Shown: positions 16,603 through 51,759 of the stretch, in pieces | Position numbering within the stretch: the first letter of the stretch is position 1 | How the letters are laid out: every line of letters begins with the position of its first letter | Source: Bradyrhizobium sp. ARR65 | GTDB lineage: Bacteria > Pseudomonadota > Alphaproteobacteria > Rhizobiales > Xanthobacteraceae | Assembly (NCBI RefSeq): GCF_000472385.1 | Contig: NZ_AWZU01000002.1 | Span: 1 to 64,000, forward strand | DNA length: 64,000 bases | Direction: 5' to 3' | Notes under the pieces: generated by a model | Seen by the model: only the letters and a program-made list of their open reading frames with translations | The model's database searches: none | What the model was told of the DNA's origin: nothing | Position numbers and translations under genes: made by a program

Positions 16603-17487
16603 TTAGCCGGCCTTGCGGTGTCTTGCGGGCGAGCGCTGTGCCTTCCTTGCCGCGCGGCGGTGCGAGGTGCGACGGCGTTCTGCCGCATGGCTTGGCCGTT
16701 TTGCGGCGGCTCTGCCCTTCAGGCTCTGCTTCAACGCATCCATCAGATTGATGACATTGCTTGGCCGCTCCTCCGGCTCGGGCAGCTTGATCGGTTTGCC
16801 GGCGGCCTTGCGCCGCACCAGCGTCTTCAATGCGTTTTCATACTCGTCCTTGAACTGCGAGGGATCGAAATGCGCCGCCTTGCTGCGCAGGATATGTCCT
16901 GCAAGCTCGACCATGTCCTTCGTGATCCTTGGATTCCTGATGCCCTCGAAATAGTCGCCGGCGTCGCGCATTTCGTAGGGAAAGCGCAGCGTCGTGCCGA
17001 GCAGGCCCCTGCCGCAGGGTTCGATCGCGATCACATGCTCGCGGTTAGTGAGCACGATCCGGGCAAGCGCCACCCGGTCCTGGTCTTTCATGGCGTCGCG
17101 AATGACGGCAAAGGCATCGACACCGGCCGCTCCGTCCGGGGCGATGTAGTAGGGATGGTTGAGGTAGCGTTCGTCGATCTCGTCCTTGGGTACAAAACTG
17201 TCGATGTCGATCGTATGCGTACTTTCGATCTGGATGGCGTCCAGCTCCTCCTTGTCGATCTCGACATAGTTGCCCTTGCTGATTTCATAGCCGCGCGCCT
17301 TCTGTTCGCCCTCGACGACGTCGCCGGTCTCGGAATCCACCATCTGCTGCTTCAGCCGGTTGCCCGTCTCTTTGTTGATGAGATGAAAGCGGGTCTTTGC
17401 CACCGCAGTTGTTGCCGGATAAAGGACGACCGGACAGGTCACCAGCGAAAGCTTGAGCGAGCCTTTCCAATAGGCGCGGGGGGCCAT
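16603..17487 (-). CDS. ku: Ku, DNA end-binding protein for non-homologous end joining
   Basis: A 294-residue bacterial Ku. The Ku core spans about residues 5-255 and includes the N-terminal YWKGSLKLSLVTCPV, the KGYE-like segment ARGYEISKGNYVEID, and the C-terminal MVELAGHIL and YENAL-LVRRK. Ku forms a homodimer ring on broken DNA ends and recruits LigD. The last 40 residues are Arg/Lys rich, a basic tail that in other Ku proteins aids DNA binding and threading. ATG 17487 is 115 bases from divergent ligD. A good EcfG-type promoter (17552 down to 17528, minus strand) precedes it, suggesting general-stress control. Confidence 0.96.
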   Translation of the reverse strand: MAPRAYWKGSLKLSLVTCPVVLYPATTAVAKTRFHLINKETGNRLKQQMVDSETGDVVEGEQKARGYEISKGNYVEIDKEELDAIQIESTHTIDIDSFVPKDEIDERYLNHPYYIAPDGAAGVDAFAVIRDAMKDQDRVALARIVLTNREHVIAIEPCGRGLLGTTLRFPYEMRDAGDYFEGIRNPRITKDMVELAGHILRSKAAHFDPSQFKDEYENALKTLVRRKAAGKPIKLPEPEERPSNVINLMDALKQSLKGRAAAKRPSHAAERRRTSHRRAARKAQRSPARHRKAG

Positions 17488-17519
17488 TCACAATCTCCGA
17501 ACGTTTCCAGCACGTTACA

Positions 17520-17544
17520 GGAACCCCAACGGGTGTTGCGGGTT
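17520..17544 (+). promoter_or_regulatory. EcfG-like promoter for ligD (variant -10)
   Basis: GGAAC (17520-17524), 16-base spacer, GGTT (17541-17544). It differs from the GGAAC-N16/17-CGTT consensus in one base of the -10 element. It lies about 58 bases before the ligD start and overlaps the minus-strand ku promoter. Confidence 0.45.
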
Positions 17545-17552
17545 TTGGTTCC
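17528..17552 (-). promoter_or_regulatory. EcfG-type promoter for ku
   Basis: On the minus strand GGAAC (17552-17548), a 16-base spacer and CGTT (17531-17528) match the alphaproteobacterial EcfG general-stress sigma consensus exactly. It is placed about 40 bases before the ku start codon. Confidence 0.7.
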
Positions 17553-17602
17553 GGATAGGTGCGTGATAGAGTTTCGCGCCGTCCGAACCAGCGAGATCGA
17601 TC

Positions 17603-20233
17603 GTGCTGCTGAGAGAGCTCTCTACCTATCGGAAGAAGCGGGATTTCGGGAAGACCTCCGAGCCGTCGGGCGAGACGCCGGTCTCGCCATCCAAGCGGTT
17701 GCGTTTTGTGATCCAGAAGCATGCTGCGACGCGGCTGCACTATGATCTGCGGCTCGAGTTCGATGGCGTCTTCAAATCCTGGGCGGTGACCCGCGGGCCC
17801 TCGCTCGATCCGCATGACAAGCGGCTGGCGGTCGAGGTGGAGGATCATCCGCTCGACTACGGCGATTTCGAAGGCACCATTCCAAAAGGCGAATATGGCG
17901 GCGGCACCGTGATGATCTGGGACCGCGGCTATTGGGAAGGCGACGATCCCGCACGCGGCTTCAAGAAGGGCGACCTGAAGTTCACGCTCGACGGCGATAA
18001 GCTGCATGGGAGCTGGGTGCTTGTGCGCATGCGTCATGACCGCACCGGCGGCAAGCGCACCAACTGGCTCCTCATCAAGCACCGGGACGAGTTTGTCCGC
18101 GAAGGCGAGGCCAACGATATTCTTGAGGAAGATCGCTCCGTCGCCTCAGGCCGGACCATGGAAGAGATCGCGGAAGGAAGGGGCAGGTCGCCCAAACCGT
18201 TCATGACGGCAAAGAACGGCCGCGGCAAGCCCGACGCCGTCTGGCATTCCAATCGCGGCGATGGTGCCGCTGCCCGTCCCACAACCAAGGCGTCCGCGAA
18301 GGCCAGGAAGGTCTCGTTAATGCCCGACTTCGTGGCACCGGAGCTGTGCACCTCGGTGGAGCATCCGCCCAGCGGAGACGGATGGGGCCATGAGATCAAG
18401 TTCGACGGTTATCGGGTGCAGTTGCGGGTCGAGAACCGCGAGGCCACTCTGAAGACGCGCAAGGGACTGGACTGGACCGACAAGTTTGCCTCGATCGCCA
18501 AGGAGGCAAGCGCGCTGCCCGATGTGATGATCGATGGCGAGATCGTTGCACTCGATGCCAAAGGCGTGCCGAATTTCTCCGCGTTGCAAGCCGCAATCGC
18601 GGACGGCAAAACCGACAAGCTGATCTTTTTTGCCTTCGATCTGCTGTTCGCGGAGGGCATGGACTTGCGGCGCCTGCCGCTCTCCGAGCGCAAGGCGCGG
18701 CTCAAGCAGGTCCTTGACGCGCAGCGGGGCAAGGCGAAATGCATCCGCTATGTCGAGCATTTCGAGGCAGACGGCGAGGCGGTGATGGAGTCGGCGCGAA
18801 AGCTCGCGATGGAAGGGATCATCTCCAAGAAGCTCAGCGCGCCCTATCGTTCCGGCCGCTCGGAAAGCTGGACCAAGACGAAGACGCGGCCGGGGCATGA
18901 GGTCGTCCTCGGTGGCTACAAGACGACCAACGGCAAATTCCGCTCGCTGCTCGCCGGCGCCTATCGCGACGGCCATCTTGCCTATGTCGGAACGGTCGGC
19001 ACCGGCTTTGGACAGGATACGGTGCGGCGGATCATGCCGGCGCTCAAAAAAGCGCAGTCCGATGAGAATCCGTTCAGTGGCAAGAACGCGCCGCGCAAGA
19101 CGCGCGAGGTGCATTGGCTGACACCCGAGCTCGTTGCCGAAATCGAATTCGCAGGTTGGACCGGCGACGGCAATATCCGGCAGGCGTCGTTTAAGGGCTT
19201 GCGGCAGGACAAGCCGGCGAGCGAGGTCAAGGCGGAAGAGCCCGTGATGACCAAGGTCGCCAGGCCGGTTGCGCGCGCAAGCACGGCTTCGCCGCAGCGC
19301 ACCGCGCGGCCGGAGCGCAACGGCTCCGAAGTGATGGGCGTTGTGATCTCGAAGCCCGACAAGGAGTTCTGGCCCGACGGCGGCGATGGCGAGCCAATCA
19401 CCAAGCTCGATCTGGCCCGCTATTTCGAAGCGGTCGGCGACTGGCTGATGCCTCACATCAAGGGCCGGCCCTGCTCGATCATCCGCGGTCCCGACGGCAT
19501 CACCGGCGAATGCTTCTTCCAGCGGCACGCGATGCAGGGAACGCCGAAATATCTGGACCTCGCCAAAGTCTCGGGCGATCGCAAGCCATATTTGCAGATC
19601 GACCGGATCGAAGGACTTGCCGCTGTGGCGCAGATTGGCGGACTTGAGCTGCATCCCTGGAATTGCGCGCCTTATGCGTACGATACGCCCGGGCGCCTGG
19701 TGTTCGATCTCGATCCGGCGCCTGACGTCGACTTCACTGAGGTGGTTGCGGGCGCCAGGGAGATGCGGCAGCGCCTCGCCGATGTCGGCATGGAGAGCTT
19801 CTGCAAAACAACCGGCGGCAAGGGCCTGCACGTCGTGGTGCCGCTGCTCCACGGCGCCAAGGACAAGGTGAGCTGGAAAGAAGCAAAGTCCTTCGCGCAG
19901 GGCATCTGCCGGTGGATGGCGAGCGACGCGCCGGAGCGCTACCTCCTCAACATGTCGAAGCGGCTGCGCAAGGGAAAGATTTTTTTGGACTACCTGCGCA
20001 ACGACCGCATGTCGACCGCGGTCGCGCCACTATCGCCGCGGGCGCGCGTGGGCGCCACCGTCTCGATGCCGCTGACGTGGACGCAGGTGAAAGCCGATCT
20101 CGATCCGAAGCGCTTCACCATGCGCACTGTGCCGACGCTGCTTGCGAAAAGCAAAGCGTGGCAGGGCTACGATGACGCGGCGTACTCGATCAAGGCGGCG
20201 ATCGCGAAGCTCGCAAAGAAGAAGGCAGGCTGA
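17603..20233 (+). CDS. ligD: LigD, multifunctional end-joining DNA ligase
   Basis: An 876-residue ATP-dependent ligase with the full three-part layout. The N-terminal 3'-phosphoesterase domain is at about 25-180 ([23 protein letters not shown]). The central ligase domain (about 235-530) has adenylated Lys266 in KFDGYR, then DGEIVAL, EGIISKK and a GKTKTR-like [10 protein letters not shown] motif. The C-terminal AEP polymerase/primase (about 570-870) has the catalytic DLDP at 702-705 and a conserved [10 protein letters not shown] 50-residue basic linker separates ligase from polymerase. GTG 17603 is the only plausible start before the YRKKRDF motif; its ribosome site is weak. It is divergent from ku, with overlapping stress-type promoters. 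Confidence 0.96.
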
Positions 20234-20343: not shown

Positions 20344-20508
20344 CTAAATCCTGCCCAACAAAATCAGGATCAGCAGGATGATGATGACGAGCCCGAGTCC
20401 GCCGCCGCCGTAATAGCCGGTGCCATAGAACGGTCCGCCGCCGACGCCGGAGAATCCGCCGAGCAAGGCGATGATGAGAATAATCAGGACAATCGTTCCA
20501 ATCGACAT
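20344..20508 (-). CDS. DUF3309 family membrane mini-protein
   Basis: A 54-residue protein with two hydrophobic segments (IGTIVLIILIIALLGG at the start, LGLVIIILLILILLGRI at the end) joined by a glycine/tyrosine-rich loop. This is the DUF3309 pattern: tiny proteins common in Alphaproteobacteria and often seen among stress genes; function unknown. ATG 20508 has a strong GAGGAGG site. The open frame continues 41 codons upstream but lacks protein character. A GGAAC-N16-GGTT element lies about 45-70 bases upstream on the same strand, suggesting EcfG control. Confidence 0.8.
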   Translation of the reverse strand: MSIGTIVLIILIIALLGGFSGVGGGPFYGTGYYGGGGLGLVIIILLILILLGRI

Positions 20509-20553
20509 AAACACCTCCTCGAGCTCGCCGTTGAGCGAGCGCCTCGGGCGGAA

Positions 20554-20578
20554 AACCGATTCCAAAGTTGAAGGTTCC
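20554..20578 (-). promoter_or_regulatory. EcfG-like promoter for the DUF3309 gene (variant -10)
   Basis: On the minus strand GGAAC (20578-20574), 16-base spacer, GGTT (20557-20554), followed by TT. This is the same one-base variant as the element in front of ligD. The -10 lies 46 bases from the start codon. Confidence 0.45.
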
Positions 20579-48683: not shown

Positions 48684-49815
48684 GATGCCTTTTTCCGTTC
48701 GAGCTGGTTCTACTTCCGGAACTCCGCCAGCTTTCTGGCGCCACAATGGATTGTCAACCGGCCTACCGCCGCGGACGGAAAATAGTGCCCGAGGAAAGGT
48801 AACGCTGGTCGCGCCGCTTCGATCCAGAAAATCTGCCCCCACTTAGCGGCAATTGCGGAACAATTTCGTGACAATGCCGGGCCTGCGGGTCGCTAGGGCC
48901 GCAATCCTATTCAAGGCGGTAAGAGGCCCCGCTGCTGCAGCTCAGCGATGCGCATTACGCTGCCCGTATCGGCGCGGACGGGATCGCCGGGCTCCCGCAA
49001 GCGAAACGAATGTCGTCATTGTTTTTTCGACGAACGCACAATTGCAACCGTCGCCGGTATGTGATGCCAAGGCGGAGCGGATAGCCGGCATTTCGGTGCT
49101 CTCCAGAGCTTCGCCGCGGCAACTTCCTGTTTGGGGTATGCCGGCGACCTGCGTCATAGCGGCGCATAAATGTGCGCACAGACCTTGCGGTTCTGTGCCG
49201 CGCCAACATTTGTTTATCGAACGCCTCGGCTTTGGTCGTCGCAATCATGTCCTAAGCGTGGCCCGTGCGTGCAGGCCGGCAAACGCCGCCTCCGCGAGAA
49301 CAAAAACAAGCGCGACACTCCGCAGACATCTTATGCTAATCTTCCAGTATTGCTTCTCTTCCGCTCACCCATTTCAAAACTGGATTGGCGGTGACGGGCG
49401 ATTGCGTAGGAAATTCGTCGTGCCGCGGGGCGTCACGTTCGGCTGCCTGGCGCCGACGCTCAAAAGCGTTCATTTCGTGTTCATTTTGGTCGGGCGGAGG
49501 CGCCTTCACGCGTCTTCACAAACCGTTGTGCGGCGCAGGGAAAAGCCTCGGAAAAGCATATCTCCGGATTCGTACGGATGTTGCGAACCCGCTACAATAG
49601 GCCAAAACTAATGCGCTGGAAGGGTTTTTGCCGAACTATTGAGCGAACTGCTTGTTGATATGGCAATCACTGCATGCGGTACGCATTGCGAAGAGGAGCT
49701 CAGCGAGCGTTCAATAGAGGCAGCGTGCTCAGTTTGATTCGTCGTTGAGCAGGAACGCACCCCTACTCAGCCCGTTTCAAAGTGCAGCGGGACATATCGC
49801 GGAGAGAGAGGGATC
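48684..49815. other. 1.1-kb intergenic region without a convincing gene
   Basis: Divergent region between tal-pgi (minus) and prkA (plus). Open frames occur (for example 48853-49611 plus and 48942-49244 minus), but they are rich in Cys, Arg and Ser, lack motifs and have no ribosome sites, so I do not call them. The part after about 49590 is less GC-rich than its surroundings. An EcfG promoter lies at 49753-49777. The region may hold a decayed gene or an unrecognised RNA. Confidence 0.55.
49753..49777 (+). promoter_or_regulatory. EcfG-type promoter of the prkA-yeaH-spoVR operon
   Basis: GGAAC (49753-49757), 16-base spacer, CGTT (49774-49777): an exact match to the general-stress sigma factor consensus of Alphaproteobacteria. 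Predicted start near 49784, leaving a leader of about 32 bases with the GGAGAGAGAGGG ribosome site before ATG 49816. Confidence 0.8.
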
Positions 49816-51759
49816 ATGTACAACGATTCTCTATTCAATGCTTTCGCTCGATCGTTCGAGGCGCGAAGCCAGACCGACATGTCGATGGCGGAATATCTGG
49901 AATCGTGTCGAACAGATCCGATGCGATATGCAAATGCGGCCGAACGACTACTAGCGGCGATCGGTGAGCCCCAGATGATCGACACGGCCAAGGACCCACG
50001 CCTTGGCCGTATCTTTTTGAACCGCACGATACGCAGCTATCCGGCCTTCGCCGGCTTCCACGGCATGGAAGATACGATCGAGCGTATCGTCGGATTCTTC
50101 CGCCACGCCGCGCAGGGGCTCGAAGAGCGCAAGCAAATCCTCTATCTGCTTGGCCCGGTCGGCGGCGGCAAGTCCTCTCTCGCCGAGCGGTTGAAGCAAT
50201 TGATGGAAGTGCATCCCATCTATGTGCTGAAGGCGGGCGATGAGCTGAGCCCGGTGTTCGAGTCTCCGCTCGGTCTGTTCGACCCCGATACGCTCGGGCC
50301 GATGCTCGAGGAGAAATACGGCATTCCGCGCCGCCGTCTCACCGGCCTGATGAGTCCGTGGTGCTACAAGCGGCTGGAATCCTTCGGCGGCGACATCTCG
50401 CAATTCCGCGTCGCCAAGATTCAGCCCTCGCGCCTGCGCCAGATCGCGATCTCCAAGACTGAGCCAGGTGACGAGAACAACCAGGATATCTCCTCGCTCG
50501 TCGGCAAGGTCGACATCCGCAAGCTCGAGACCTTCGCCCAGAACGATCCCGACGCCTACAGCTATTCGGGCGGCCTCAATCGCGCCAACCAGGGCATTCT
50601 CGAATTCGTCGAGATGTTCAAGGCGCCGATCAAGATGCTGCATCCGCTGCTGACGGCGACGCAGGAGGGCAATTACATCGGCACCGAAAACATCGGCGCC
50701 ATTCCTTTCAGCGGCATCATCCTCGCGCACTCCAACGAGGCCGAATGGCAGAGCTTCAAGGCCAACAAGAACAACGAGGCCTTTATCGACCGCATCTGTG
50801 TGATCAAGGTCCCGTACGTCCTGCGTGTCACCGAGGAGCGCAAGATCTACGAGAAGCTGATCCAGAGTTCGGAGCTTGCGAATGCGCCTTGCGCGCCGGC
50901 GACGCTCGATACGATGGCTCGCTTCTCGGTGATGTCGCGCCTGCGCAGGCACGAGAACTCGACGCTCTTTTCCAAGATGCGTGTCTATGACGGCGAGAGT
51001 CTGAAGGAGTCCGATCCGAAGGCCCGCAGCGTCCAGGAATACAGGGACGCGGCCGGCGTCGACGAGGGCATGGATGGAGTTTCCACCCGCTTTGCCTTCA
51101 AGGTTCTCGCGGCGACCTTCAACCACGATACCCAGGAGGTCGGCGCCGACGCCGTCCATCTGATGTATGTGCTGGAGCACGCGATCCGTCGCGAGCAGCT
51201 CCCCGAGGAGCTCGAGAAACGCTATCTGGAATTCATCAAGGCGGAGCTGGCGCCGCGCTACGCGGAGTTCATCGGCAACGAGATCCAGAAGGCCTATCTG
51301 GAATCCTACTCCGATTACGGCCAGAACCTCTTCGACCGCTACGTCGACTATGCCGACGCCTGGATCGAGGATCAGGACTTCAAGGATCCCGACACCGGCC
51401 AGCTTCTGGATCGTGAACTGCTCAACCAGGAACTGACGAAGATCGAAAAGCCCGCCGGAATTGCCAATCCCAAGGACTTCCGCAACGAGGTGGTCAAGTT
51501 CTCGCTGCGGTCGCGGGCCCAGAACGGCGGGAAGAATCCGAAGTGGACCTCCTACGAGAAGATTCGCGAGGTGATCGAAAAACGGATATTCTCGCAGGTC
51601 GAGGACCTGCTTCCCGTGATCTCGTTCGGGTCCAAGAAGGACGGCGAGACCGAGAAGAAGCACGCCGATTTCGTCGCGCGGATGATCGAACGCGGTTACA
51701 CCGAGCGGCAGGTCCGGCGGCTGGTCGAGTGGTACATGCGCGTGAAGCAGGCCGGATAG
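49816..51759 (+). CDS. prkA: PrkA family serine protein kinase / AAA+ ATPase
   Basis: A 647-residue PrkA (YeaG-type) protein. The N-terminal AAA+ domain has Walker A GPVGGGKS at 113-120 and continues through GLFDPDTL and GYFSGGLNRANQG-like sequence SYSGGLNRANQGILEFVEMF. The C-terminal PrkA kinase-like domain starts near 390. In enterics YeaG acts in nitrogen starvation and stress survival; its kinase activity is reported but its targets are poorly known. The strong ribosome site and EcfG promoter upstream support stress induction. It is the first of three co-directional genes; 18 bases separate it from yeaH. Confidence 0.95.
   Translation: MYNDSLFNAFARSFEARSQTDMSMAEYLESCRTDPMRYANAAERLLAAIGEPQMIDTAKDPRLGRIFLNRTIRSYPAFAGFHGMEDTIERIVGFFRHAAQGLEERKQILYLLGPVGGGKSSLAERLKQLMEVHPIYVLKAGDELSPVFESPLGLFDPDTLGPMLEEKYGIPRRRLTGLMSPWCYKRLESFGGDISQFRVAKIQPSRLRQIAISKTEPGDENNQDISSLVGKVDIRKLETFAQNDPDAYSYSGGLNRANQGILEFVEMFKAPIKMLHPLLTATQEGNYIGTENIGAIPFSGIILAHSNEAEWQSFKANKNNEAFIDRICVIKVPYVLRVTEERKIYEKLIQSSELANAPCAPATLDTMARFSVMSRLRRHENSTLFSKMRVYDGESLKESDPKARSVQEYRDAAGVDEGMDGVSTRFAFKVLAATFNHDTQEVGADAVHLMYVLEHAIRREQLPEELEKRYLEFIKAELAPRYAEFIGNEIQKAYLESYSDYGQNLFDRYVDYADAWIEDQDFKDPDTGQLLDRELLNQELTKIEKPAGIANPKDFRNEVVKFSLRSRAQNGGKNPKWTSYEKIREVIEKRIFSQVEDLLPVISFGSKKDGETEKKHADFVARMIERGYTERQVRRLVEWYMRVKQAG

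Follow-up and report, generated by a model that had tools for sequence, protein, structure and literature searches.

Probable promoter elements between ku and ligD

In the 8.6-Mb genome of Bradyrhizobium sp. ARR65, the end-joining genes ku (minus strand) and ligD (plus strand) are divergent, and the short gap between them raises the question of whether both are transcribed from one site read by the general stress response sigma factor EcfG and, if so, what the overlap of the two promoters means for their expression. A sequence-only reading of the window (the whole 64,000-nucleotide stretch of DNA that was analysed) had proposed that end joining belongs to the general stress response and that the two partners may be expressed alternately or in a fixed ratio.

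Family scans identified a Ku core and a three-domain LigD, the two components of a Ku-plus-LigD end-joining system. With the ku ATG at 17487 (minus strand) and the ligD GTG at 17603 (plus strand), the gap is 115 bases long, as that reading had stated, and the motifs that it had placed within 33 bases, GGAAC-N16-CGTT toward ku on the minus strand and GGAAC-N16-GGTT toward ligD on the plus strand, were confirmed when the window sequence was read again. Transcription from ECF promoters starts about 7 nt from the -10 element, and the start positions listed here were predicted at that distance.

16603..17487, minus strand: ku, 294 aa (Pfam PF02735 and NCBIfam TIGR02772, both above cut-off)
17603..20233, plus strand: ligD, 876 aa, GTG start (phosphoesterase, ligase and polymerase domains, by family scans)
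17520..17552, no strand assigned: interlocked frame GGAAC-N3-AACS-N9-SGTT-N3-GTTCC, 33 bp, candidate bidirectional promoter (motif match and conservation)
17520..17524, plus strand: predicted -35 element of the ligD promoter, GGAAC (motif; GGAAC in 43 of 44 distinct frames, one change in the other)
17541..17544, plus strand: predicted -10 element of the ligD promoter, GGTT, spacer 16 (GGTT in 53 and TGTT in 2 of 55 interlocked loci)
17552-17548, minus strand: predicted -35 element of the ku promoter, GGAAC (invariant in 44 of 44 distinct frames)
17531-17528, minus strand: predicted -10 element of the ku promoter, CGTT, spacer 16 (in 55 interlocked loci CGTT 23, GGTT 24, TGTT 6, AGTT 2)
17519..17522, minus strand: predicted ku transcription start, about 7 nt from the -10 element
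17550..17553, plus strand: predicted ligD transcription start, about 7 nt from the -10 element

Both directions thus carry the GGAAC -35 element of EcfG-type promoters, with spacers of 16 and 16 that fall within the 16-17 of that class. The ku -10 element is an exact CGTT, and the ligD element, GGTT, is a published variant within the other known NGTT boxes. Each -10 element sits within the spacer of the opposite promoter. No LexA box was seen in the 33-bp frame on inspection by eye.

Sequence and comparison establish the elements, their geometry and conservation, the gene assignments and the cascade genes described below; EcfG as the sigma factor, exclusion between polymerases, and induction by stress are what we infer. 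The 33 bp are very probably a bidirectional EcfG promoter from which stress induces both end-joining genes together. Stress would act through the PhyR-NepR switch to free EcfG, the EcfG holoenzyme would bind the 33 bp in either orientation and fire either ku or ligD, and both end-joining genes would be co-induced from the single site. Judging from the geometry, two polymerases probably cannot occupy the overlapping sites at once.

Occurrence of the interlocked frame

Single motifs of this type are not above chance in the window. The exact consensus has 2 matches against 0.77 expected, a number reached in 17 of 100 shuffles, and GGAAC-N16/17-NGTT has 5 matches against 2.04 expected, a number that 10 of 100 shuffles reached. 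What exceeds chance is the interlocked frame, together with its conservation. The frame occurs at one site in the ARR65 genome, where the reversed-pattern control gave 0 matches. Within the genus it is present in 212 of 265 genomes (ARR65 included), and the reversed-pattern controls again gave 0. In the order as a whole it was found in 13 of 397 genomes, all 13 within the family of the window, and the control matched in one genome.

A scan of named genomes returned at least 119 loci, at least 98 of them flanked by ku or ligD and at least 21 unflanked. Among the matches listed, at least 95 lay between ku and ligD, with each gene no more than 260 bp away, at least 3 had one of the two genes and at least 21 had neither. 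The 98 listed flanked loci came from Bradyrhizobium (80), Rhodopseudomonas (5), Tardiphaga (4), Nitrobacteraceae (2), Afipia (1) and other or broad labels (6). The 21 listed unflanked loci were spread over many phyla, with 5 from other Alphaproteobacteria. They fit chance, since 15 of the 21 lie within stop-free frames of at least 200 codons and about 7-16 matches are expected from base composition in the 257 Gb of named genomes.

The listed matches also included the frame beside ku/ligD on contigs labelled Mucilaginibacter (L190) and Frankia, which are probably misplaced Bradyrhizobium-type contigs.

A wider search of the ARR65 genome, for GGAAC-N17-GTT with a facing GTTCC no more than 30 bp away, found 11 matches in 10 places, and its reversed control exceeded this number (13 forward and 8 reverse, against 11). 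Among the nine places other than the ku-ligD gap, an opposing motif was present in two (contigs C56 and C66), neither with the ku-ligD geometry. The pair on C56 adjoins coding sequence that by eye is glycosyltransferase-like and asparagine-synthase-like, and was dropped; on C66 the two motifs follow one another end to end and together span 52 bp.

Conservation in related genomes

Comparison of the gap among relatives had been suggested as a check on the conservation of both motifs, and this was carried out on 74 loci that were retrieved by the ku protein, avoiding loci found by the motif itself. Eleven further loci (L093-L103), with ku below 70% identity, were left out of this set. The overlapping pair was present in 55 of 59 divergent short-gap loci from six genera, in a set that over-represents genomes without the exact frame because these were searched on purpose. 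In the other four (L024, L086, L091 and L092), one half lay outside the pattern. The interlocked span was 33 bp in 50 of the 55 loci, 34 bp in 4 and 32 bp in 1, within gaps of 95-152 bp. In five sister genera, 11 of 14 loci were interlocked. The comparison supports the view that the interlock is old and has been kept, with its spacing almost unchanged in Bradyrhizobium and close relatives.

Across the 44 distinct 33-bp frames, information was concentrated in the -35 elements and in the AAC/GTT of the -10 elements (1.7-2.0 bits), and the central columns 14-20 held 0.04-0.51 bits. The ligD half was conserved about as well as the ku half. A near-invariant TT at frame columns 26-27 (17545-17546, plus strand), 3' of the ligD -10 element, is unexplained by the promoter consensus.

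The -10 elements of the two halves differ in their letters. The prevalence of GGTT, with some TGTT, at ligD, set against the frequency of CGTT at ku, makes it possible that ligD output is lower than that of ku. A fixed Ku:LigD ratio is possible. A supposition that ligD never carries CGTT proved wrong: among the 95 listed, doubly flanked loci that were found by the pattern, 2 have CGTT as the ligD -10 element, with CGTT at ku as well, and a locus with separated genes (L139) also has it.

In the 11 distant ku loci of the family, GGAAC-N16/17-CGTT was present upstream of 5 and absent from 6. The presence of the motif in some of these loci suggests that stress control of ku may predate the frame. 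The four ku paralogues of the ARR65 genome had no GGAAC-N15-17-NGTT upstream (0 of 4). Upstream of two of them (L105 and L106), GGAAC-N16-TCTTGAATC was noticed, which by eye resembles an ECF promoter with a different -10 element.

Two-copy and separated versions of the candidate promoters

In the 53 genomes of the genus that lack the exact frame, a close ku (E below 1e-110) was found in 31 and none in 22. Two clades of the Ku tree are informative about what happens when the two promoters are no longer interlocked. The first comprises four genomes (G195, G196, G197 and G012; support 100/94), in which a frame-like copy adjoins each gene. Both copies are in one locus in G195, and in the other three genomes ku and ligD are on different contigs. 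The two copies in G195 (L113) align at 90% over 29 bp, and from this likeness the frames of the clade were inferred to be duplicates. The ku-side copy has kept GGAAC-N16-CGTT in all four genomes, with the ligD -35 element decayed in three of them; the ligD-side copy has kept GGAAC-N16-GGTT in all four, and its ku -35 element is lost in all four.

In the second clade (support 99/95), ten loci have the genes apart, by gaps of 373-821 bp in eight, by about 1.4 kb in G251 and by megabases in G129; the clade also contains one interlocked locus (L111). All ten ku genes have GGAAC-N16/17-NGTT and all ten ligD genes have GGAAC-N16-NGTT. These comparisons indicate that the interlock came apart at least twice and that neither gene lost its promoter motif.

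In the congeneric genome G236, whose ku is 66% identical, no such motif was found before ku (L135) or before ligD (L137). In G004, ligD and the frame are present and ku is absent from the locus. In G025 (L104), ku has shrunk to a 46-residue match beside ligD and a full frame, so that the main Ku appears to have been lost recently.

Significance of the overlap

Two things were known separately: EcfG control of ku/ligD, which is reported for ku-ligD or ku in Sphingopyxis and Sphingomonas, and bidirectional promoters. The latter, as reported by Warman, Grainger and colleagues, are pseudo-symmetric DNA that polymerase could bind in two mutually exclusive orientations to give divergent mRNAs (PMC12825309, PMC10268837); they are described for the housekeeping sigma factor and share a -10 element, and their starts lie 18 bp apart in most cases, with distances of 10 and 23 also given (PMC12825309, PMC10268837). 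In contrast, the ku-ligD site has an ECF-type signature and, in place of a shared symmetric -10 element, two separate ones nine bases apart (17528-17531 and 17541-17544). Its starts, which are predicted positions only, are about 30 bp apart, against 7-25 bp for that class. The site would work like the class, insofar as exclusion follows from overlap only, yet its separate -10 elements place it outside.

The same sigma signature in both directions implies that ku and ligD should be induced together, and exclusion would operate only between single initiation events. This part of the sequence-only reading, the alternate expression of the partners, is therefore not upheld; its placing of end joining in the general stress response is in keeping with the conserved motifs of each gene, the encoded cascade and the age of the interlock. 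Since at least two lineages keep both promoters apart, exclusion is not required and the interlock is dispensable.

What, then, has preserved the geometry? We lean toward the explanation that the interlock is a passive trap: both promoters are real, and because one or the other would be disrupted by almost any insertion, deletion or shift, the geometry persists without any benefit from exclusion. This explanation bears on the purpose of the site and not on its identity. It agrees with the clades in which the genes have moved apart and both still have EcfG-type motifs, and with the survival of the 34-bp and 32-bp variants; the long persistence of the interlock, which extends to most loci of the sister genera, counts against it. 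The contrasting possibility is that the interlock is a selected device, in which occlusion between EcfG polymerases under full stress would fix the Ku:LigD ratio and lower cell-to-cell noise, with the -10 letters setting the ratio clade by clade. We regard this as doubtful; the analogy is with bidirectional promoters of E. coli. The five such housekeeping promoters tested in E. coli reportedly showed no competition at basal activity (PMC12825309), but strong activation in one direction repressed the opposite one, and noise fell at one promoter (PMC12825309). If the analogy with these housekeeping promoters holds, competition at the 33 bp would matter only under strong stress. Because locked, two-copy and separated versions occur within one genus, the role of promoter competition for two cooperating proteins is directly testable.

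The EcfG cascade and other candidate targets

The ARR65 genome contains one NepR match, located beside genes for an ECF sigma factor and a PhyR protein, and so encodes an EcfG-type sigma factor, NepR and PhyR. GGAAC-N15-17-NGTT had no match in the phyR/nepR-ecfG gap of this genome, and the promoters of the cascade itself therefore give no confirmation of the motif there. The ku-ligD site resembles EcfG-type (sigma-T, RpoE2) promoters of Alphaproteobacteria in its GGAAC, 16-17 bp spacer and NGTT, in the ku/ligD targets of other species and in the accompanying PhyR, NepR and EcfG genes. It differs from them in that two promoters are interlocked face to face in a fixed 33 bp that is kept across genera.

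GGAAC-like -35 boxes are common to several ECF groups, and another ECF sigma factor of the same genome might read both promoters in place of EcfG. We consider this improbable, as GGAAC-N16-CGTT is a published EcfG signature and ku or ku-ligD is reported to depend on EcfG in two other alphaproteobacteria. For Sphingopyxis, the EcfG motif is reported as GGAAC-N16-CGTT, with GGTT among the most frequent other -10 boxes; ku-ligD is placed within the EcfG regulon, and a GGTT promoter was chosen for in vitro transcription. Changing CGTT to CATT or TGTT lowered in vitro transcription from one promoter there, and some non-consensus promoters outdid the consensus. In Sphingomonas (S. melonis), the Ku gene 1102 is reported as EcfG-dependent, and in Mesorhizobium loti heat reportedly induces three of the four homologues of ku and one of the three of ligD.

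That the ku promoter alone works, with the ligD half a decoration and ligD driven from elsewhere, appears highly improbable. In its favour, none of the 55 ku-retrieved interlocked loci has CGTT as its ligD -10 element. Against it, the two halves show about equal conservation, the ligD-side copies have retained the ligD half alone (4 of 4), and a consensus scan for E. coli-type housekeeping promoters, the one type that it covered, gave 0 in 17380-17700. The least credible reading takes the site as a palindromic operator bound by a dimeric regulator, which the symmetric outer arms GGAAC...GTTCC might suggest; it was rejected because the inner parts are asymmetric (YYC on the left, TTG on the right) and because two promoters, each with its own direction, emerge at the two-copy and separated loci. 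There, each duplicated frame is missing one arm and retains a complete promoter, and each separated gene has its own -35/-10 pair.

The bidirectional EcfG promoter remains the preferred reading of the site, and a further target is likely beside it. A small membrane protein gene (20508-20344, minus strand), presumably DUF3309-like, is convergent to ligD and has GGAAC-N16-GGTT upstream; GGAAC-N16-NGTT precedes this gene in 19 of 19 loci (ARR65 and 18 relatives), and on the basis of this conservation it is likely a further EcfG target. The motif-bearing region (20508-20578, minus strand) lies beside the end-joining genes. Elsewhere in the window, an exact GGAAC-N16-CGTT was observed at 49752-49816 (plus strand), 39 nt upstream of a gene (49816-51759) that we take to encode a PrkA-like serine kinase.

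Dupuy's work of 2017 and 2019 is said to tie Ku-based end joining in Sinorhizobium meliloti to stress and stationary phase, and the present site would be like that stress-inducible end joining in linking Ku to stress. In the open PMC literature (titles and beginnings of abstracts), no description of interlocked EcfG promoters or of the Bradyrhizobium ku-ligD gap was found. If the proposed reading is correct, a large group of bacteria associated with soil and plants would have end joining as part of its general stress response, connected to it by a single, deeply conserved site that locks two alternative-sigma promoters together.

A dispersed element in enlarged gaps

Enlarged ku-ligD gaps contained a dispersed element of about 400 bp (L117:2633-3093, and L113), of which 14 copies were taken from the ARR65 genome (L332-L345). 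The element was matched in 7 of 7 Bradyrhizobium genomes searched, with at least 10-48 matches each; for the most part the best 40 candidates were scored, from 100 first-look candidates in ARR65 and 37-189 in the others. The element had no Rfam family at gathering score, and at E up to 1 four copies gave only neighbouring tRNA and weak microRNA chance matches. The RNA fold of a 22-row alignment reached -116.9 kcal/mol, compared with a mean of -26.6 and a lowest value of -33.7 in 20 column shuffles and with -56.4 for the other strand. Two-sided changes were counted in 33 of 91 pairs, a count that ignores relatedness. The element may be a structured RNA or a mobile element, highly repeated and so far undescribed.
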